Assembly: GCA_947624775.1 (NCBI GenBank)
Contig: CANQLT010000018.1
Coordinates: 1 to 33,112 of the forward strand
Source of the DNA: an uncultured Monoglobus sp.
GTDB taxonomy: Bacteria > Bacillota > Clostridia > Monoglobales > Monoglobaceae
Direction: 5' to 3'
Length of the DNA stretch: 33,112 nt
Shown: positions 1,463-27,430 of the stretch, one piece after another
Numbering within the stretch: the first letter of the stretch is position 1
How the letters are laid out: every line of letters begins with the position of its first letter
Notes under the pieces: generated by a model
Database searches by the model: none
Seen by the model: only the letters and a program-made list of their open reading frames with translations
What the model was told of the DNA's origin: nothing
Position numbers and translations under genes: made by a program

Positions 1463-1490
1463 AGGCACGAAGTGAAAAAATATTTTTTAT
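1463..1490. repeat. 28-bp exact repeat, copy 1 (end of HK1)
   Basis: This 28-bp sequence (starting AGGCACGAAGTG on the plus strand) is identical to 6658-6685. It includes the HK1 stop codon. The flanks differ immediately on the 1462 side, while on the HK1 side some weaker similarity continues (TTTGATATATAA against GTTGATTATAA). Confidence 0.9.
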
Positions 1491-2776
1491 ATATCAAACA
1501 GAATTATATTTGTCTCATAAAATCCGTTATGGCACGAGGCTCTGAATATACCGTTATATCTTTCTACAACTTCGGTAATATTATTAATGCCGATCCCGTG
1601 ATTTATTTTATCGCTCTTGTCGGTCAACGGCTTTCCGTTCGCAAACTCAACTTTTTTATCGGTTGTATTTCGTATTCCTATAAACAGCTGACGTTGACGA
1701 AACAATATATCAAAAATTATTTTCCTCTTTTCGGGTTCTAATTCTAAACACCCTTCAATGGCGTTATCAAAAAGGTTTCCGAGCAGCATACAACACTCTA
1801 CACCGGTTAATTTTAAATCACAAGGCAGCTTTTTAATATTTAATTCTGTTGTGATATTATTTTTATGCGCCTGTGATATTTTTGAGTTTATTATGGAATC
1901 AAGCGACAGATTTCCTGTATTCATTACTTCATCGTCATTGTCGAGCTGCTCAACGCCCAATTCCAAAATATATTTTTCTGCTTCATCAATATTTTTGTCT
2001 TTTAATAGTGAAAACAGAATTTGCAAATGGTTTTTAAAATCATGTTTTATTGAAATCATTTTTTTATTATCATAAGTTTGCTTTTTCATATATTCGTTCT
2101 GTTCGTCAACATGACTTTCCAATAAAGCGTTTTTTAATTTTGTTTCAAATGTCTCAATTAGTCTGTCAAATAAATAAAAACTGATAACACTGCTATACAT
2201 TGTGCATATCATCAAAATTAACATCGGCACTTCACTTTCGGGTGAAACCGATTTGAAAAAATATACAACAGACATCACAATTGCCATATTCATTATCGGC
2301 AAAGTCATAAGCGCTATCCAATAATTTCGATAAATATGCGAATACTTTTTATTCCAAAATATACAAATAAATTTAATTGCTATAAACAACAGTATTTTAG
2401 AAGAAATCATTCCTACTATGCGGTATGTCGTTTCATCAATCAAGTCAATAGGCCGAATTTGATTTAGAATTAAAAGCAACGCTCCCGCTATGTACTCCAT
2501 CGCATCGGAAATCAGCGCGATGCCGAACGCGCAAAACAATTTCGATTTCCAATCAGCGTCATAGCACATTGTTCCTATAAGTGCCGCGGCTATATAAATT
2601 ACAGTAGTTACAATCAGACCTCCGCCAATAAGATAATTTGTCAATAAAATCAGAATAAAAAATATTTTTAAAACGTTTTTTAATACCTTCTTATTACACT
2701 CCATAAAATTGTCATATAACATATATGTCATAATCATTTGAAAAGTAATAATCGCAATATTTAAAAATAAAAACAT
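1487..2776 (-). CDS. HK1: GHKL sensor histidine kinase (AgrC/HPK10-like)
   Basis: This 429-residue protein has about six hydrophobic membrane segments in residues 1-205, a linker, then a kinase domain of the AgrC/ComD class. The phospho-acceptor is H245 in SIKHDFKNHL, the N-box is N338 in LFDNAIEG, and the ATP-lid glycine box is NHGIGINNI near residue 393. Such kinases usually sense a peptide and phosphorylate a LytTR response regulator. It follows RR1 by six bases, with its ribosome site inside the RR1 stop region (AGGTGA), so the two are translationally linked. A terminator follows. Its sequence is markedly richer in A+T than HK2 or the core genes, which suggests separate ancestry or later arrival. 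The kinase half is not the one shared by HK2 and HK3. The ligand is unknown. Confidence 0.9.
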   Translation of the reverse strand: MFLFLNIAIITFQMIMTYMLYDNFMECNKKVLKNVLKIFFILILLTNYLIGGGLIVTTVIYIAAALIGTMCYDADWKSKLFCAFGIALISDAMEYIAGALLLILNQIRPIDLIDETTYRIVGMISSKILLFIAIKFICIFWNKKYSHIYRNYWIALMTLPIMNMAIVMSVVYFFKSVSPESEVPMLILMICTMYSSVISFYLFDRLIETFETKLKNALLESHVDEQNEYMKKQTYDNKKMISIKHDFKNHLQILFSLLKDKNIDEAEKYILELGVEQLDNDDEVMNTGNLSLDSIINSKISQAHKNNITTELNIKKLPCDLKLTGVECCMLLGNLFDNAIEGCLELEPEKRKIIFDILFRQRQLFIGIRNTTDKKVEFANGKPLTDKSDKINHGIGINNITEVVERYNGIFRASCHNGFYETNIILFDI

Positions 2777-2782
2777 AATCTA

Positions 2783-3493
2783 TCACCTCATTCCAATAAC
2801 AAAATTTAAATATGTATTTTCAAAGTTTTCTCTGCAGGAGTTGCTTATCGGGATAACATCACCGTTTGACAATGTCACTTGGCTTTTGGTGCGCTTAACG
2901 ATATAAGCCGGATTTACGCAAAATGAATTGTGGGTTATAACAAACCCGTGCTGCAAAAGTATTTCTTTATAGTCTTTTAATTTTCCCCAAAACTCATATA
3001 TTGTATCGTGTGTATGTAAAACAATCTTGCGCTTATCGCTGTTTAAATACAGAATTTCATCATATGTTATTCTGTATTCCTGTCTGTTATTTTTAAATGT
3101 AAAGTAATTTGAATTGACAACATCTAACGCAACCCGTTCCAATGTGCTTTTAAGCTCCTCATAACTCACGGGTTTGTCAAGAAATCCGGATGGAGCGCAC
3201 TCAAAACAATCACGAATATATTTATCATAATTCGTCAAAAAGATAATTATTATCTTTTTATCCATTTTCCGAATTTTACGGGACAATTCAATCCCGTTTA
3301 TGCCGTCTAATTCAATATCCGCGATTAAAACATCATATTTACGGCCTTTAGTATAACAATCTAAAAGTTGTTCTCCTGAGTAAAATACATCCCAAGTAAT
3401 GTTTTTATATACTTTATTTAACCGAACAAGATGATTTTCAAGATGATTTATCCAACTGTTCTCATCATCACACACGGCTATCCGAAGCGTCAT
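2783..3493 (-). CDS. RR1: LytTR-family response regulator
   Basis: The 236-residue protein has an N-terminal receiver (residues 1-125: acidic DD at 9-10, phospho-acceptor D59 in LIADIELDG, lysine in FLDKP) and a C-terminal LytTR DNA-binding domain (about 135-236, with YLNSDKRKIVLHT and NSFCVNPAYI). It is the AgrA/VirR type, which binds paired direct repeats. GAGGTGA lies 4 bases before the ATG. It is the first gene of an RR1-HK1 operon whose promoter nearly matches that of RR2. Candidate targets nearby are the direct repeats at 1334-1365. The first ten codons resemble those of RR2, but the rest of the two proteins is clearly diverged, so they are paralogues rather than recent copies. Confidence 0.93.
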   Translation of the reverse strand: MTLRIAVCDDENSWINHLENHLVRLNKVYKNITWDVFYSGEQLLDCYTKGRKYDVLIADIELDGINGIELSRKIRKMDKKIIIIFLTNYDKYIRDCFECAPSGFLDKPVSYEELKSTLERVALDVVNSNYFTFKNNRQEYRITYDEILYLNSDKRKIVLHTHDTIYEFWGKLKDYKEILLQHGFVITHNSFCVNPAYIVKRTKSQVTLSNGDVIPISNSCRENFENTYLNFVIGMR

Positions 3494-3514
3494 GTCATCA
3501 CCTCTCTCTTTTTT

Positions 3515-3543
3515 ATTTTACAAACAAAAAGAGGTTTTGTCAA
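3515..3543 (-). promoter_or_regulatory. Sigma-A-type promoter of RR1-HK1
   Basis: On the minus strand, TTGACA (3538-3543), a 17-bp spacer and TAAAAT (3515-3520) lie close to the RR1 ribosome site. CCTCTTTTT in the spacer and AAAAGAGAGAGG downstream form an inverted repeat around the -10, possibly an operator. The -35 and half the spacer are identical to the RR2 promoter. Confidence 0.85.
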
Positions 3544-3567
3544 TTTAAAATTCACGCGAGCGGGGGG

Positions 3568-4184
3568 TTATTTTGGGGGAATATGGAGTAATACCAGCGT
3601 TCTGAAAAATTTATTTTCTTTATCGTAGCTCCAGTCCAGGCTGCTGTTATATTTTTTCAGGGCATTATTTATGCTCCTTATTCCGAGGCCGTGTTCATCG
3701 GGATCGTCTTTTTGCGTTTGAGGCATGCCGTCTGAAACAACAGGCTCCCGATCCGCGTTGTTTTCCACCTTCACCGCGGAAAAAGCCCCGTTTACCGTAT
3801 ATAAATCCACAAAGATCTCTTTCTTTTCCGTATCGGCGGAGGCTTCTATGGCGTTGTCAATTAAATTTGAAAAAATAGTCACGGTGTCAATATCCGATAT
3901 AAATGACAAAGTCGGCGAATCGGAATGAATATGGATCTCTATTCCCGCGTCACGGCACTCCCGCGCCTTTTGAGCAAGTATGACGTTCAAAATATTATTA
4001 TCCGTGTAGCGAGCGTAATCCAGATCTCTTTGCGAAAACTGCAATTCCCGCATGTACTTTTTCGCCTTTTCGTTATCTTCCGAGATCAAATCACTCAACA
4101 CGGCCAACAGCTTGCGAAAATCATGGCGCATAATTTTTGTATTCTCGTATTTTTCCGCCAAGATACGATATTCGACCAATTCGG
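3568..4184. repeat. 617-bp duplicated kinase-domain segment, copy 1
   Basis: It matches 6704-7320 at a constant offset of 3136. Reading both copies side by side I find six mismatches, all between about 4055 and 4184; the first roughly 490 bp from the stop codon are identical. All six are synonymous. Similarity stops at the HK stop codon on one side and at a conserved Glu-Leu codon pair on the other. Confidence 0.93.
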
Positions 4185-4836
4185 CCATATTTTTTTCTCG
4201 TTCCTGTTGAAGAAGTTTAAGCTGTTGATTTTTTTCACTCATTCTTGCGTGGATATAAAATGTTATTATATTTATAATCAGCAATACCGAACACATGACA
4301 GAAAAAATCGTATAATTTATCTCTGCCGTTACCAGTATTATGACGCAAATAATCGTCATCAAGGGAATAACTATAAGCCCTAAATTAATTTCGGCATTGG
4401 GAAACGCTTTTCTTTTTGATAAATGTTTTAAAATTATAACTTCCATCAAATAACTTAGTTTGCTTCCTGTCAAAATAGTGAAAACCTGCTGCGCGGTGTA
4501 ATCATCGCGGGAAAAATGAAAGCGGACTCCGTACCAATATGACAAAGCAAATTCACTTAAAGTTGAAAAGGCGTCCAAAAGTATACCGTAAAATATCGCG
4601 GTTTTAAGCGAAATTATATACTCAAACCGCAGCAGAATAACATTGATCGCGAAAAAAGCCGCGATAGAAATTACCACGCTGTTTAACAGCCCCGCCATCC
4701 ATATTATAACGTAACCCAAAAACGCGACAGCCGTGCTTTTCGGGTAGCTTTTCCGCGGCGTAAGATTGGTATTCGCAAAATACGTAAAAATGAGATATTC
4801 GGATAAACAGCCGAATAAATATCCAATATCGATCAT
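3568..4836 (-). CDS. HK2: GHKL sensor histidine kinase (AgrC-like)
   Basis: This 422-residue protein has a hydrophobic multi-pass sensor half (about residues 1-195), a charged coiled-coil linker (195-217) and a kinase domain. H238 sits in IMRHDFRKLL, N328 in FSNLIDNAIEAS, and the glycine box is EHGLGIRSINN. It overlaps RR2 by four bases (ATGA), so the two are translated together and RR2 is its evident partner. Residues 218-422 are identical to the end of HK3, and the DNA differs at only six silent sites, all in the upstream fifth of the shared stretch. The sensor halves of HK2 and HK3 are not alike. It ends only 25 bp before the RR1 -35 box, and I see no hairpin terminator between. Ligand unknown; an extracellular peptide is the usual family signal. 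Confidence 0.92.
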   Translation of the reverse strand: MIDIGYLFGCLSEYLIFTYFANTNLTPRKSYPKSTAVAFLGYVIIWMAGLLNSVVISIAAFFAINVILLRFEYIISLKTAIFYGILLDAFSTLSEFALSYWYGVRFHFSRDDYTAQQVFTILTGSKLSYLMEVIILKHLSKRKAFPNAEINLGLIVIPLMTIICVIILVTAEINYTIFSVMCSVLLIINIITFYIHARMSEKNQQLKLLQQEREKNMAELVEYRILAEKYENTKIMRHDFRKLLAVLSDLISEDNEKAKKYMRELQFSQRDLDYARYTDNNILNVILAQKARECRDAGIEIHIHSDSPTLSFISDIDTVTIFSNLIDNAIEASADTEKKEIFVDLYTVNGAFSAVKVENNADREPVVSDGMPQTQKDDPDEHGLGIRSINNALKKYNSSLDWSYDKENKFFRTLVLLHIPPK

Positions 4837-5543
4837 CGAAGTTCACTGCTCCATTTCTTGAACTTTTTATCAAATTCGGCATATTTCCTTTTGGAAATAT
4901 ACACGGTGTATTCTTTATCATTGCATCGGCAGACTATATCGGTCTTATTGTATTCCGTAACGTAATTTAAATTGACATAATAGCTACCGTGCGTTTGCAC
5001 AAAACAATCCCGATCCAATTGCTTTGCTATGTTTTGAAAAGTATCATATGTTTTTATCTCTTTTCGCGCGGTGACAATGTTTGTGAGACGATTGCTGTGA
5101 TAAACATATATAATGTCCCGCAAAGGAATTTCTATTCTATTTTTTTCCGATGTGGTAACTACCGTTCTGTTTGCCCGCATCTCTTTGAGAGCCGATTGAA
5201 TACCGTATATCAGCCGAGTTTTGCTGAGCGGTTTTGTCCAGAACCGAAAAGCGTGTTTGTTCAGCGCGTCATCCATATAATTCTCATGGTATGTTATAAA
5301 ATAAATAAAGCATCTCGGACTTTTTTTGTGAATACGTCCCGCCGTTTCTATTCCGTTTATACCAGCCATTTCCACATCCAAAAACACCATTTGATAGATT
5401 TTATCCGAGGCGAGCATATCATCCGAATCAGAAAAAGTGTCGATCTTCCACTCTATATTATCGGGCAAAACGCTTTCGATGAGTTCGGCCTCCTGCCTCA
5501 AATCTTCTGTTTCATCATCACATACGGCTATCCGAATCGTCAT
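4833..5543 (-). CDS. RR2: LytTR-family response regulator
   Basis: Two-domain regulator of 236 residues: receiver (DD at 9-10, phospho-acceptor D56 in MVFLDVEMAG, lysine in RFWTKPLS) and C-terminal LytTR domain with VYHSNRLTNIVTA and QTHGSYYVNLNYV. The open frame extends upstream to 5594, but I place the start at ATG 5543. That codon follows a GAGGGGTGATAAC ribosome site and matches the RR1 start, whereas the upstream extension runs through the promoter itself. It overlaps HK2 by ATGA. Since HK3 has exactly the same kinase domain as HK2 and no regulator of its own, RR2 is the likely output for both; that is inferred. No target site is assigned. Confidence 0.93.
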   Translation of the reverse strand: MTIRIAVCDDETEDLRQEAELIESVLPDNIEWKIDTFSDSDDMLASDKIYQMVFLDVEMAGINGIETAGRIHKKSPRCFIYFITYHENYMDDALNKHAFRFWTKPLSKTRLIYGIQSALKEMRANRTVVTTSEKNRIEIPLRDIIYVYHSNRLTNIVTARKEIKTYDTFQNIAKQLDRDCFVQTHGSYYVNLNYVTEYNKTDIVCRCNDKEYTVYISKRKYAEFDKKFKKWSSELR

Positions 5544-5565
5544 GTTATCACCCCTCTCTTTTTTT

Positions 5566-5594
5566 ATTTTACAGCCGAAAAGAGGTTTTGTCAA
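5566..5594 (-). promoter_or_regulatory. Sigma-A-type promoter of RR2-HK2
   Basis: TTGACA (5589-5594), a 17-bp spacer and TAAAAT (5566-5571) on the minus strand. The stretch from AATTTTAAA before the -35 to the end of CCTCTTTT in the spacer is the same as at RR1, and the A-rich, GAGAGG-containing leader is also shared. This implies common regulation of the two operons. Confidence 0.85.
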
Positions 5595-5627
5595 TTTAAA
5601 ATTTTCGTGGCGAACCTGCGTATATTT

Positions 5628-5659
5628 TTATAAAACAGGCGCCCCGTTACGGGACGCCT
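5628..5659 (-). terminator. Rho-independent terminator after the truncated surface gene
   Basis: On the minus strand AGGCGTCCCG and CGGGGCGCCT form a 10-bp stem (one G-U) with a three-base TAA loop, followed by TGTTTTAT. It lies about 30 bp past the stop at 5692 and insulates the RR2 promoter from upstream transcription. Confidence 0.82.
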
Positions 5660-5691
5660 TGCGTATTTATTGGGAAGATTTAATTTTTTTC

Positions 5692-6663
5692 TTATTTAAA
5701 GCTTATTTCTTTTGTCTCGGATAAAGGCTCTGCCGAGCTGAAATCGCTCCAGACAAAGGCTTTTATCGAGCCGATCTTCCGGGTCTGAGGCGGAATGTTG
5801 AACCCGAAAGAATAGTCATAATCGGGCGCGAAGTCGGCGCGCACGTAGTCGATATTCAGCAGTATGCCCTCCTCGTTATATACCGCGACAAATACATAGT
5901 CCTTTGAGCTTTCGTTCTTTAGCTTTCTGAGCGTAACCTCCGCCTCAAAACTGCCGTTTTCGGGCGGCGCGTCGAGAGCTTCGCCCGCCTGAGTAAGTAT
6001 CGACAGGCCGCCTATTTCGTACAGATAATCAATATCGGGCGCCTCGGTCGGCTGAGTCTCGGCTGTCTCGGTGGGAAACGGCTCGACTGTCGCCGAGGGT
6101 ATGGGCGATGATGTTTCATCGGGCTCATCTGTCGGTTCGGGTTCATTGCCGATATCCACACGCTCATAGCTCGCGTTGCCGCTTGTGTCAACGGCGCAGA
6201 TCACTATGGATCTATCCGTCTTTATAGTTCCGCCGGAAACCGAAATCGGTTTTCTCTCTGTCAGGAAAAATTCATCCGTGCCGTTGTCGGACCTGCCTAT
6301 CTGTTTAAGCTCAACATCGGCATAATCAATTCTCGCGACGCCGATATTATCTGCGGCTGTCACCTTTATTTCCGACGGTTCTTTTTCGGACGCGGGTACT
6401 TTCACGTCAAAGTCGATCTCGGGCGGCTTGGTGTCAATTTGAGACGGTTTTGACAGCTCCTTCGACACAACCGTGTATTTTCCCTCGGAGTCTTCGATAA
6501 ACAGGTTGTATGAGCCGGTATATTTTAGATTATACGCGCCGTTTTCATCGGGCTTTACCTCAAGTCCGGAGTTTATGAAGCTGTCCATCAGCTTTGAGAT
6601 CCTATCATCGTATCGGGCGTTGCAATAGTCGGGCGGCAAAGATTCCGGCCATGAACCAGGCAC
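5692..6663 (-). pseudogene. 5'-truncated fragment of a large surface protein
   Basis: The open frame (323 codons from a GTG at 6663) has no signal peptide and no ribosome site, and it starts exactly where the 28-bp repeat begins, so it appears to be the 3' part of a once longer gene cut at a recombination point. Visible parts: residues 70-175, an Ig-like or cadherin-like beta region (DTKPPEIDF, VTAADNIGVARIDYADVELKQIG); about 175-210, a Pro/Thr/Glu linker like that in the SLH protein at 10419; and a C-terminal domain with VFVAVYNEEG and IKAFVWSDFSSAEPLSE, a pattern typical of the last domain of clostridial exported proteins. A terminator follows. It could be translated as a cytoplasmic fragment, but a functional surface protein is unlikely. 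Confidence 0.65.
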
Positions 6664-6685
6664 GAAGTGAAAAAATATTTTTTAT
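6658..6685. repeat. 28-bp exact repeat, copy 2 (between HK3 and surface fragment)
   Basis: Identical to 1463-1490. Here it lies between the HK3 stop (6704) and the truncated surface gene, and its outer edge coincides with that gene's artificial start. It probably marks a recombination or deletion junction. Confidence 0.9.
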
Positions 6686-6703
6686 AATCAACAAAATGGG
6701 TTT

Positions 6704-7320
6704 TTATTTTGGGGGAATATGGAGTAATACCAGCGTTCTGAAAAATTTATTTTCTTTATCGTAGCTCCAGTCCAGGCTGCTGTTATATTTTTTCAGGGCA
6801 TTATTTATGCTCCTTATTCCGAGGCCGTGTTCATCGGGATCGTCTTTTTGCGTTTGAGGCATGCCGTCTGAAACAACAGGCTCCCGATCCGCGTTGTTTT
6901 CCACCTTCACCGCGGAAAAAGCCCCGTTTACCGTATATAAATCCACAAAGATCTCTTTCTTTTCCGTATCGGCGGAGGCTTCTATGGCGTTGTCAATTAA
7001 ATTTGAAAAAATAGTCACGGTGTCAATATCCGATATAAATGACAAAGTCGGCGAATCGGAATGAATATGGATCTCTATTCCCGCGTCACGGCACTCCCGC
7101 GCCTTTTGAGCAAGTATGACGTTCAAAATATTATTATCCGTGTAGCGAGCGTAATCCAGATCTCTTTGCGAAAACTGCAATTCCCGCATGTACTTTTTTG
7201 CCTTTTCGTTATCTTCCGAGATCAAATCGCTCAACACGGCCAAAAGCTTGCGAAAATCATGGCGCATAATTTTTGTATTTTCGTATTTTTCAGCCAAGAT
7301 CCGATATTCGACCAATTCGG
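6704..7320. repeat. 617-bp duplicated kinase-domain segment, copy 2
   Basis: Partner of 3568-4184 in the same orientation. Immediately past the HK3 stop the sequence departs from HK2's flank and instead resembles the end of HK1, suggesting the tail of an originally HK1-like gene was overwritten by HK2 sequence. Confidence 0.93.
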
Positions 7321-8005
7321 TCTTGTTCTTGCTCTCGATCTCCCTGAGTCTTTTTATCTGAATGTTTTTGTCAATAATCCTGTCGCATACCAGATACGCC
7401 GCAAAATTGGATACTATCAATATAAAGCACATCACCATAAAAGCGATATTCGTCTCATATTTCAGGCCTGCCTTGACATGATTATACATCAGGAAAAACC
7501 CGAACGTAAATATCGGCAGGGGCAAAAGCCAGAACATCTCATAAAATTTATTGCCGCTGTTTCTGCTGACGGTATAATACTTCAGCATAACGACTAAAAT
7601 AAAATATAGAGTTTTGGACATAAGCGTAAAAAGAAGATCTTGAGCAATACTTAAATAGTTCGGGTCCTCGACAATCTCCACACCAAGAAGAAACGACGTC
7701 ACCAATTCGGTAAACATCATAAACACCGTAATAATAATTACTTTTAGTATAATGCTCAATATATTTTCGGCAAACCCGATATATAAGACCAAAAAATTGA
7801 CCGCGATGAATCCCAAAACATTCAGGATCGGTTGGCCGATAAAACATAAACAGCAGTATAAGGCATAGCCGATCACTATGCAAAGATTGCTCTCAAATCT
7901 CGAATGTTTGTAAGTCATAACCGAATTTGTATAATAGAGCAGCACAAAGCACTCGATCACAATTACCGGCGCTGTTAAAATACACTCAATGAATTCTATA
8001 TTCAT
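6704..8005 (-). CDS. HK3: orphan GHKL sensor histidine kinase with HK2's catalytic domain
   Basis: This 433-residue protein has a strongly hydrophobic multi-pass sensor (about residues 1-210), a linker (IKRLREIESKNK) and, from ELVEYRIL on, the same 205 residues as HK2: H249 in IMRHDFRKLL, N339 in the N-box and the EHGLGIRS glycine box. The sensor shows no clear relation to that of HK2, so it should read a different signal but pass phosphate to the same regulator. No complete response regulator accompanies it; a relic lies just upstream (8002-8067). The start ATG overlaps the relic's stop as ATGA, the same junction as RR2-HK2, so the start is supported despite a weak ribosome site (GAGGCGG is rather far away). 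The two parts are each intact, so this is probably a working gene. Confidence 0.88.
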   Translation of the reverse strand: MNIEFIECILTAPVIVIECFVLLYYTNSVMTYKHSRFESNLCIVIGYALYCCLCFIGQPILNVLGFIAVNFLVLYIGFAENILSIILKVIIITVFMMFTELVTSFLLGVEIVEDPNYLSIAQDLLFTLMSKTLYFILVVMLKYYTVSRNSGNKFYEMFWLLPLPIFTFGFFLMYNHVKAGLKYETNIAFMVMCFILIVSNFAAYLVCDRIIDKNIQIKRLREIESKNKTELVEYRILAEKYENTKIMRHDFRKLLAVLSDLISEDNEKAKKYMRELQFSQRDLDYARYTDNNILNVILAQKARECRDAGIEIHIHSDSPTLSFISDIDTVTIFSNLIDNAIEASADTEKKEIFVDLYTVNGAFSAVKVENNADREPVVSDGMPQTQKDDPDEHGLGIRSINNALKKYNSSLDWSYDKENKFFRTLVLLHIPPK

Positions 8006-8067
8006 ATAATTTCTTTTGCCGCCTCAAAAAACTTAATGCAAAAATCCTGGTATCCCCCGGCCATCAT
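8002..8067 (-). pseudogene. C-terminal relic of a LytTR response regulator upstream of HK3
   Basis: An open frame of 21 codons ends with TGA overlapping the HK3 ATG. Its last 16 residues, YQDFCIKFFEAAKEII, line up without gaps with the end of RR2, YAEFDKKFKKWSSELR: identical at Y, F, K, F and E, with D/E and I/L alike. With the same ATGA overlap, this looks like the tail of HK3's lost regulator, the rest having been deleted. The match is short, so it is suggestive rather than proven. Confidence 0.5.
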
Positions 8068-8092
8068 GGCATTAGATATGCGGCAAAATAAT

Positions 8093-8119
8093 TCACCTCT
8101 TTTTCTATTATTTATTTTA
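8093..8119 (-). promoter_or_regulatory. Relic of the response-regulator promoter/leader upstream of HK3
   Basis: On the minus strand TAAAAT (8114-8119) is followed by AAATAATAGAAAAAGAGGTGAAT, cut here only for description: an A-rich leader with GAGGTGA (8093-8099) like those of RR1 and RR2. The -35 position is not TTGACA but falls in a GGGGAGCTGTC repeat sequence, so a repeat seems to have landed there. It may still drive HK3 weakly. Confidence 0.45.
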
Positions 8120-8160
8120 GTGCCGAGAACATCTCGACAGCTCCCCCCCAAGGGGGCGCC

Positions 8161-8263
8161 ACGGGCGGCAGATTGCCGCCCCTACGGGTTTAATGCAATT
8201 CGTATGTATTACGGCAATACAATACATCACCGGCGCCCGTAGGGGCGGATATTATCCGCCCGT
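8161..8263. repeat. 103-bp nested palindromic element
   Basis: The ends are perfect inverted repeats (ACGGGCGG and CCGCCCGT). Each arm is itself a hairpin (GGCGGCA/TGCCGCC and GGGCGGATA/TATCCGCCC), and the two arms share a second inverted pair, CCGCCCCTACGGG with CCCGTAGGGGCGG. It has no coding capacity and resembles MITE or REP-type elements seen in gut Clostridia. Together with the unit at 8287-8442 it fills the gap between HK3 and the GH51 gene. Confidence 0.75.
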
Positions 8264-8286
8264 TAGGCTCTCCTCCTTTTAAGGGG

Positions 8287-8442
8287 GAGAGCCTATTTTT
8301 GCCTCCCCTGCAATAGTGGGGGAGGGGGACTGCGGCCGGAGCCGCGAAGCGGGTTCGTGGCACTAACGTATTTCGTTTGCACAAATAAACGAGGCCACAA
8401 ATCATTAACATAAGCGGACATGACGCGACAGCGGTGGAAGGG
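8287..8442 (+). repeat. Dispersed ~155-bp repeat, copy A
   Basis: It shares long near-identical stretches with the reverse complement of 27275-27430: a TTTTTGCCTCCCCTGC block, GGCCGGAGCCGCGAAGCGGG followed by TTCGT, GCCACAAATCATTAAC and GCGGACATGACGCG. It ends four bases before the GH51 stop codon. It holds no gene and is a non-coding repeat of unknown mobility. Confidence 0.8.
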
Positions 8443-8445
8443 ACC

Positions 8446-10359
8446 TTATTTATGAGGCAGATTTATCACCGTAAGCGAATACGGATTTAGCGCAGGTGCG
8501 GCGCGGAGGGCGAAAACTTCCGTTTTCGGCGTTATTTTGTCGGGGTTTTCAAAGGTGTTTTTCGCGGTCGGGCTGTCGGCGCAAAGGACCGTTATATCTC
8601 CCTCCGCCGCGGCGTTAAGCCCGGCTGAGATATTTAGCTCGACTTCGATTTCATTTTCGGTCGGATTGACAAGCTTTATTATCAAATCTCCGTTTTCGGT
8701 CAAAGAGGCCGCGACGTAAACTCCGTCGCCCGCCTCGCATTTGAGCGCGAAAGCGCCCATATTTTCTGCGAATAATTTCTGCACATAATAATTCGGAGTT
8801 TTGACGATCCTTTCGGCGTCGAACCAGATCATATCAGGCGCCCAATGACTGTGCGGCGGCTTTTTTGAAAACAAAGGCGCGTATGACGCCATGATAACGT
8901 TTTCCGCCCGCTCCAGTCCGCAGAGAAACGCCGCCTCGGAAAGCGCCGATATCATATCGTTAAAGCGCGTCTCTCCGCCCGCCTCATAGGGCTTTGCCGC
9001 GTATTCGCCCAAATACACCGAAATTCCGCCGCCGCGGCCCTCGTAAAAATCCGCGTTCTCGAAAAACCATTCTTTTGTGTTGTAATTATGCTCGTCCACG
9101 GCGAAGGCATAATTGGGATTTTTCGCCGACTTTTCCTTGAGCCGCTTATGCGCCGCCTTATAGCGTTCCTCTCCCACTCGCGGCCCCGCGGAAAATATCA
9201 AGTCGATCTTCGGATATTTTTCATGTATAGCCTTTTCAAAGGCCTCGTAGCGCTCAAACCATTGGTTTGTCTCGGTCTGCCACTGCTCGTTGCCTATAGC
9301 GAGCATACGCAGATTAAAGGGCTCGGGGTGACCCATGACGCTCCGCAGCCCTCCCCATTTTGTGTCGGGCGCGCCGTTTGCGAACTCTATCAAATCGAGA
9401 GCGTCGTTTAAATATTCCGAAAATTCGGGCGTGTAATTACCGTTTTTGTCGTAAAGCGGCACCGTCTCAGAGGTGTTGAACTGGCACGCCATACCCGCGT
9501 TGATAACCGGCAGCGGCTCGCAGCCCAGATATTCGCACAGCAAAAAATACTCAAAAAAACCTATGGCAAAGCTCTGGTTATATCCCGGCTCCTTAAAAGC
9601 CCAGCGGCTGAAATCCTGTTTTCTCCTATGCGCCGGGCCGACCGTACGTTTCCAGCGGTACGCGTTTTTGAGGTCATAGCCCTCCACCGCGCAGCCGCCC
9701 GGGAACCTCAGAAATCCGGGGCGCAGCTCTTTCATCGCCTCGGCCATATCGCGCCTGAAAATCCCAAATGCCGCGTCGGACGGGATCAGCGACAGCATTT
9801 TTATATCTACGCTCTCGCCTTTTGAGAGATCGGGAAAAGACAAGCGCAGTCGGCAGTCTGCCGCCTCGCTCTCAGCCTTGAGCACTCCCGCTCCGTTTTC
9901 GCCGATAATGCAGCGCGCCATAACTTTTCCGCCCGAAACTGCCTCAAGGATTATTTTGCCCGAATATCCGCGCGCGTCCGCGGTAAGCGCCGCTTTATAC
10001 TCCGCGCCGCGTCTCAGCGCGAAACCGCCAAACGCCGAGTTAATTGCCGCCGCGCCGTTCTCTCCGCCGCGCAGCCGCATAAAATAAAACCCGTCCTCGT
10101 CTTTGAGATATTCGGCCGAGCCGCGCGTGATCTCCCAGCCGAAACCCGGCTCGGGCGCGGAGCCTGACAAACGCTCGCGCGTCCTTCCGCTTTCGTCGGT
10201 ATAAAACTCAAAATCGGGCGTGATATGCCCGAACGAACGGTTCTCGACCAGCTCCGCCGAGAGGCCGCCGTCGGCGGCACAGCTTATGTCCTCAAAAAAC
10301 AGGCCTATCATGTTGGGAGCGATTTTCGCGGTTTTTTCCGCGGTGATTTTAATTTTCAT
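8446..10359 (-). CDS. Alpha-L-arabinofuranosidase, GH51 family
   Basis: This 637-residue enzyme should release terminal alpha-L-arabinofuranose from arabinoxylan, arabinan or their oligosaccharides. The N-terminal part has the GH51 opening (IAPNMIGLFFEDIS..ADGGLSAELVENRSF), then a beta-rich insert, then the (beta/alpha)8 core: RFPGGCAVEGYD, W-rich PGYNQSFAIGFFEYF, acid/base E358 in AIGNEQW, DEHNYNTKEWF, and the probable nucleophile E452 in LGEYA. A beta-sandwich closes the protein. Length fits the longer GH51 subgroup. There is no signal peptide, so it acts in the cytoplasm on imported oligosaccharides. GAGGTAA precedes the ATG. It lies 59 bp after the SLH gene across a terminator, and I see no separate promoter in that gap. 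Confidence 0.92.
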   Translation of the reverse strand: MKIKITAEKTAKIAPNMIGLFFEDISCAADGGLSAELVENRSFGHITPDFEFYTDESGRTRERLSGSAPEPGFGWEITRGSAEYLKDEDGFYFMRLRGGENGAAAINSAFGGFALRRGAEYKAALTADARGYSGKIILEAVSGGKVMARCIIGENGAGVLKAESEAADCRLRLSFPDLSKGESVDIKMLSLIPSDAAFGIFRRDMAEAMKELRPGFLRFPGGCAVEGYDLKNAYRWKRTVGPAHRRKQDFSRWAFKEPGYNQSFAIGFFEYFLLCEYLGCEPLPVINAGMACQFNTSETVPLYDKNGNYTPEFSEYLNDALDLIEFANGAPDTKWGGLRSVMGHPEPFNLRMLAIGNEQWQTETNQWFERYEAFEKAIHEKYPKIDLIFSAGPRVGEERYKAAHKRLKEKSAKNPNYAFAVDEHNYNTKEWFFENADFYEGRGGGISVYLGEYAAKPYEAGGETRFNDMISALSEAAFLCGLERAENVIMASYAPLFSKKPPHSHWAPDMIWFDAERIVKTPNYYVQKLFAENMGAFALKCEAGDGVYVAASLTENGDLIIKLVNPTENEIEVELNISAGLNAAAEGDITVLCADSPTAKNTFENPDKITPKTEVFALRAAPALNPYSLTVINLPHK

Positions 10360-27244: not shown

Positions 27245-27274
27245 GCCTCGCCAAATGGCGAATTATGGAAACGC

Positions 27275-27430
27275 CCCTACCACCGCTAACGCGTCATGTC
27301 CGCTCACGTTAATGATTTGTGGCTTTGATTATGCTTGCAAATGAAATACTTTGGCTAAACGAACCCGCTTCGCGGCTCCGGCCACAGTCCCCATCCCCCA
27401 CTTGCGCAGGGGAGGCAAAAATCAGGCTCC
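27275..27430 (-). repeat. Dispersed ~155-bp repeat, copy B
   Basis: Inverted relative to copy A at 8287-8442, with several long shared blocks and a diverged middle (around TTTAGCCAAAG against TGGCACTAACG). In this copy it is followed at 27425-27452 by a hairpin (GCTCCCCTTCC/GGAGGGGGAGC) and a CTGTCTGCGCAGCAGACTG core. It is the first part of the 460-bp gene-free stretch between two convergent genes. Confidence 0.8.

Follow-up and report, generated by a model that had tools for sequence, protein, structure and literature searches.

The window analysed here is the whole of a 33,112-nucleotide stretch (positions 1 to 33,112 of contig CANQLT010000018.1, assembly GCA_947624775.1) from an uncultured Monoglobus sp., a bacterium of the gut. 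It carries an array of two-component systems in which two sensor histidine kinases of the GHKL family, HK2 and HK3, end in the same catalytic half. The window's own genome, a metagenome-assembled genome (MAG) in 182 contigs and 96% complete, is referred to as G000; it was compared within a set of 12 Monoglobus genomes, G000 included, each species being represented by one MAG. Public records list the relatives as uncultured Monoglobus sp. from 'Lapin' samples. Over housekeeping DNA (rseP to uppS), the window is 95% identical to G003, 93% to G010 and G008, 91% to G007 and 79% to G004 and G009. Below, RR stands for response regulator, S3 and S3b for types of sensor, and K2 and K3 for types of kinase (catalytic) half. 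The genes and segments at issue are:

3568..4836, minus strand: HK2, GHKL sensor kinase of 422 amino acids (aa), source type of the catalytic half
3568..4184, minus strand: catalytic half of HK2, partner copy of the 617-bp block
4833..5594, minus strand: RR2, LytTR response regulator overlapping the HK2 start, presumed target of HK2 and HK3
6704..8005, minus strand: HK3, GHKL sensor kinase of 433 aa, very probably chimeric, with an S3 sensor (codons 1-229) and an HK2-type half
7321..8005, minus strand: sensor half of HK3 (S3), 89% identical in amino acids to HK3 of G010 and 68% to HK3 of G004
6704..7320, minus strand: HK2-type catalytic half inside HK3, with H box RHDF from residue 248, N box NLIDNAIE and G box HGLGI
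7199..7320, minus strand: apparently older stratum next to the joint, about 121 bp, with all six silent differences
6704..7198, minus strand: apparent recent conversion tract, 495 bp identical to HK2, reaching the stop codon
6654..6703, minus strand: flank probably carried with the transplanted half, ending in a GCCYGGTT microhomology joint

Both open reading frames encode intact GHKL kinases matching Pfam HATPase_c_5 (PF14501; E 2.6e-18 for HK2 and 9.9e-19 for HK3). A simple scan found at least 4-5 hydrophobic segments in the membrane sensor half, which points to a polytopic protein, and helices also appear there in a low-confidence model. HK2 is paired with the LytTR regulator RR2 and the adjacent kinase HK1 with RR1, while RR3, the regulator of HK3, is reduced to a remnant.

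The composite structure of HK3

When the two halves of HK3 were compared separately, they were found to have different closest relatives, the pattern by which domain shuffling is recognised. The sensor half follows HK3 of G010 (89%), while the kinase half is 100% identical to HK2 and 40% identical to the native K3 half of G010. The G010 array lies on one contig and reads arabinofuranosidase, RR3, HK3, surface protein, RR4, HK4, RR2, HK2, RR1, HK1. Because G010 keeps the S3 sensor on a different, native kinase half with an intact RR3, HK3 of the window is almost certainly a natural chimera, made of its own S3 sensor and a catalytic half of the HK2 type. The domain swap proposed in the sequence-only reading is thus borne out. 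Its description of the two sensors as unrelated was overstated, since the sensor halves of HK2 and HK3 share 22% identity over 210 residues (E 5e-12) and are remote homologues.

The same reading had suggested testing whether sensors and kinase domains show discordant relationships among the orthologues. By identity they do; the trees of such short halves are weak, the approximately unbiased (AU) test giving p 0.03-0.05 on the short alignment of the HK3 sensor half. For the HK3 kinase half, where identical rows in a short alignment affect the AU clade tests, identity values were used in their place. No old, independently conserved HK2/HK3 pair, which the same reading had named as a result that would speak against it, was found in the relatives. 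In a family-wide search, K2-type halves at 95% identity or more were found only in G000, G004 and G010, and a plasmid search with HK2 returned just remote GHKL kinases below 60% identity.

A sensor exchange at one address, with regulator and kinase both above 90%, can be seen between G008:C1 (L175 10254-12286) and G010 (L049 8375-10413). At the HK3 address of G008, RR3 is 92% and the K3 kinase half 93% identical to those of G010, while the sensor, S3b, is 48% identical. Block by block, identity between these two genomes is 86-98% in RR3, 43-68% in the sensor (81% in its last block) and 78-100% in the kinase. One address thus holds S3b-K3 in G008, S3-K3 in G010 and S3-K2 in G000. The kinase at this address is absent from the nearest relative, G003, and from G007.

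The shared block, its joints and its history

Segments 3568-4184 and 6704-7320 form a direct repeat of 617 bp with a spacing of 3136 bp, present in two copies only in the G000 genome. A repeat search and a base-by-base comparison reproduced exactly the coordinates, the six silent differences at the upstream end and the abrupt borders that had been described: the match ends at the stop codon on the 3' side, and on the 5' side identity falls to background in the linker helix. The mismatches lie at window positions 4063, 4093, 4108, 4144, 4156 and 4165; all six are silent (p 6e-5), each at a third codon position. All are confined to the 121 bp nearest the sensor, and the remaining 495 bp are identical up to the stop codon, an uneven spread (6/121 against 0/496; Fisher p 5e-5). 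Over these 496 sites HK2 and HK3 show no difference, while each differs from HK2 of G010 at 22-23 sites (p 2e-7). Selection at the protein level cannot explain the absence of silent changes in the 495 bp. Such a sharply bordered tract of identity inside diverged genes, discordant with the orthologues, is the pattern of gene conversion, and it fits a recent homogenisation of the 3' 495 bp of HK2 and HK3 in this genome, by gene conversion or crossover. In the 121-bp stratum, the HK3 copy is as diverged from HK2 as HK2 is between species; the derived state lies on HK3 at three of the six sites and on HK2 at one, and two sites are ambiguous.

The crossover on the sensor side lies in the linker at CCGA. 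HK3 aligns with the native gene across it without a gap: the two halves meet at the homologous codon, neither adding nor dropping a residue, and so preserve the helix register. One predicted helix, residues 183-242, spans the joint in an AlphaFold model of low confidence (mean pLDDT 57). On the far side, the flank of about 50 bp behind HK3 differs from what follows HK2 in the window. It matches the sequence behind HK1 in the window and in G010, and behind HK2 in G004, that is, the flank of an array end, and it meets codon ~197 of the surface protein gene at GCCYGGTT. Because this foreign flank matches the array-end flank, the donor was most likely an array-end HK2 resembling that of G004.

The array-end flank, the microhomology joint and a 121-bp stratum as diverged as HK2 between species indicate that the fusion is older than the conversion. 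These features fit a two-step history. An ancestor with the S3 sensor on a K3 kinase and its own RR3, the state still held by G010, would have exchanged its K3 half for the 3' half of an array-end HK2-type gene through illegitimate recombination in the linker helix; the 3' 495 bp would have been equalised later. RR3 and its promoter would have been lost through a repeat-associated deletion. Of the earlier proposal of recent gene conversion or domain swapping, the swap therefore stands and the single recent event does not.

The RR2-HK2 cassette is 94% identical in DNA between G000 (window 3568-5603) and G004 (L048 6607-8641), against a housekeeping background of 79%, and it has likely moved between species by horizontal transfer; the HK2 gene itself is 95-96% identical to HK2 of G010 and G004. 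In the right part of the array, divergence from G010 lies below the background (synonymous divergence, dS, 0.07-0.19 against 0.32-0.36), which suggests that this part was exchanged recently. The remaining cassette and the promoter repeats are:

1487..2776, minus strand: HK1, GHKL kinase paired with RR1; its stop codon marks the start of the array-end flank
2783..3493, minus strand: RR1, the LytTR response regulator in the adjoining cassette
3509..3552, minus strand: promoter repeat before RR1
5560..5603, minus strand: promoter repeat before RR2 (TTGACA-17-TAAAAT), 93% like 3509-3552

The promoter and start region is nearly identical before RR1 and RR2, and before RR4 in G010, and is a likely site of cassette recombination. 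Elsewhere in the genome, G000:C78:8000-8999 (L174) carries an RR4-like regulator (76%) and, behind it, a kinase remnant of 111 residues that lacks a sensor. An RR4 orthologue in G009:C1 (L156 3932-4636) has an altered C-terminus and looks frameshifted.

Possible present function of HK3 and alternative explanations

Compared with the colinear array of G010, the window lacks RR4-HK4, holds RR3 in fragments and the surface protein in truncated form, and has an intact RR2. The altered surroundings of HK3 are:

8005..8057, minus strand: RR3 remnant, last ~18 codons, overlapping the HK3 start
8082..8136, minus strand: RR3 remnant, internal LytTR fragment; receiver domain and promoter absent
8137..8447, no strand assigned: repeat element with ~29 partial copies in the genome, replacing the RR3 promoter and first ~510 nt
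5692..6663, minus strand: truncated remnant of the 873-aa surface protein of G010, without its first ~197 codons and an internal block

The repeat element is also found at window 27270-27422, and the surface protein varies in length between species (873, 542 and 515 aa).

The DHp domain of a histidine kinase usually determines the choice of regulator, and by this rule RR2 is the natural predicted target of the K2 half. With the RR3 of HK3 deleted and the partner of HK2 intact, it is plausible that two signals converge on RR2. The S3 sensor would then drive autophosphorylation of the HK2-type histidine and phosphotransfer to RR2, so that two sensors would feed one regulator; the identical DHp domains would also permit mixed dimers of HK2 and HK3. 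The catalytic motifs of the HK3 kinase half are intact. Its sensor shows a dN/dS of 0.17 against G010, similar to the 0.21 of HK2, and on the G000 branch 19 silent and 13 replacement changes, so that the constraint on the sensor is normal. We regard signalling from HK3 to RR2 as an evenly balanced prospect, and incline slightly towards the reading as a whole, that is, chimeric origin together with present signalling to RR2.

Several observations weigh against a functional HK3. Where G010 has the promoter-like site of RR3, with TTGACA and TATAAT boxes, the window has the repeat element, and no sigma-70-like site was seen on the minus strand in 8005-8446; HK3 may therefore be weakly expressed or silent. 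Its neighbours are decaying, as seen in the truncated surface protein and the missing RR4-HK4, and the evidence comes from a single MAG of this species. HK3 might accordingly be chimeric and yet dead, a deletion by-product in a decaying array that has also lost the RR3 receiver, intact because it is young and was overwritten by conversion. The intact reading frame, 433 codons without stop or frameshift, argues against this only weakly, because a recent conversion would erase damage in the kinase half. Other observations also speak against it: the changes in the kinase stratum are silent only, three of them derived on HK3, the sensor remained constrained on the G000 branch, and the native stretch directly upstream of the HK3 start was retained. 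A dead HK3 is a serious possibility that we consider somewhat less than even.

An assembly artefact, in which strains or copies were wrongly joined and the S3-K2 gene exists in no cell, had been named in advance as an outcome that would undo the proposal. The fragmentation of the MAG, the single genome for the species and an exact 495-bp repeat longer than ordinary short reads would allow it. However, both joints lie outside the exact repeat, because six private differences in 121 bp tag the sensor-kinase joint and unique flank tags the far joint; two direct copies allow only the given linear path, and G004, an independent MAG, has an equivalent pair on two contigs. We consider an artefact very unlikely. 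Still less probable is programmed variation, in which the direct copies 3136 bp apart would recombine in culture, with loss of RR2 and most of HK2, leaving a single chimera before RR1 and cells that differ in wiring. A long, largely exact repeat on the same strand would suit such a process and its identity indicates recent exchange, but the deleted form was seen in none of the searched genomes, no recombinase gene was seen in the array, and the loss would be irreversible. If HK2 had recently been duplicated and one sensor half had then diverged fast, identical kinase halves with remotely homologous sensors would result. This is contradicted by the gene of G010: the S3 sensor occurs there (89%) and in G004 (68%) on another kinase half and must therefore be older than the shared one, which makes the chance of such a duplication negligible.

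Recurrence in the genus and relation to known systems

Kinase halves at least 80% identical were found in 3/166 within-genome pairs of the genus. Kinase and sensor identities are 100% and 23% for HK2/HK3 of G000, 99% and 32% for C40/C12 of G004, and 89% and 30% for C2/C27 of G010. Counting from the stop codon, C40 and C12 differ at one site beside it, agree over the next 371 bp, differ silently at six sites and then diverge. The C40 sensor is 91% identical to that of HK4 in G010, and a sensor clade of C40 and C12 is rejected (AU p 6e-8); their kinase halves group with each other (98/97 support; AU against the orthologous grouping, p 0.13). This pair appears to be a second, independent case of the pattern seen in G000. 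RR4 has one close copy each in G004 and G010, so that G004 has one RR4 for two kinases. In each of the three pairs one kinase is without its own matching regulator (in G000, RR3 is deleted), a regularity that is suggestive only, because three pairs are few.

In architecture, HK2 and HK3 are AgrC/ComD-like GHKL sensor kinases (HPK10 type). They do not belong to an agr quorum-sensing system, because AgrB (PF04647) has no match in G000 and there is no equivalog match: among NCBIfam equivalogs AgrA scored far below the cut-off (33 and 26 of 400 bits) and AgrC gave none. AgrB matches in other species adjoin other kinases; no AgrD search was made. Alleles of agr and com already provide examples of sensors that vary on a conserved kinase (PMC10482373, PMC5629823). 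Like the AgrC groups of S. aureus, the Monoglobus system combines a GHKL kinase and a LytTR regulator with a variable sensor and a conserved catalytic half (PMC10482373). However, agr variation consists of alleles of one locus that travel with AgrB and AgrD, whereas here two paralogues of one genome share a kinase half, and HK3 exchanged its kinase half, not its sensor. In streptococcal ComD pherotypes, too, the sensor part sets input specificity, and the receptor gene varies by allele (PMC5629823); ComD is allelic with a linked signal-peptide gene, while HK3 is a non-allelic case that has lost its regulator and for which no linked peptide gene was recognised.

Domain shuffling among histidine kinases likewise creates new input-output combinations from rearranged modules (PMC8895600; PMC4603909; PMC3040137). 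Direct shuffling between them has been called rare or not seen in the groups studied (PMC4603909, PMC3040137), and loss followed by gain was suggested in place of direct exchange (PMC4603909). Unlike the published cases, Monoglobus shows relatives without the swap, the two joints and a conversion tract formed later. New here is a kinase half replaced non-allelically, for which the states before and after, the exact joints and a subsequent homogenisation can all be seen. Many-to-one two-component networks also exist, such as the sporulation kinases that feed one phosphorelay. If HK3 does signal to RR2, the array would resemble them in having several sensors and one receiving regulator; in those networks the kinases diverged and the target was kept, while in Monoglobus the catalytic halves are kept alike by recombination.

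Deep trees are the usual basis for inferring how old modules give rise to new signalling pathways, while the HK3 swap can be read directly from DNA. Before and after states stand at one address: G008 and G010 combine one regulator and kinase with two different sensors, and G010 and G000 combine one sensor with two different kinases. The joints are known to the base and preserve the helix register, which is the design aim of engineered sensor swaps. More tentatively, recombination in Monoglobus may repeatedly keep a kinase that lacks a regulator in step, in its catalytic half, with its regulator-bearing sibling, a concerted evolution that would wire different sensors to one regulator. The near-identical halves in G000 and G004 and the older halves (89%) in G010 support this possibility, and searches of the open-access literature yielded no account of histidine kinase halves evolving in concert. 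The array thus offers a testable case in which recombination may hold kinase halves together while their sensors differ.

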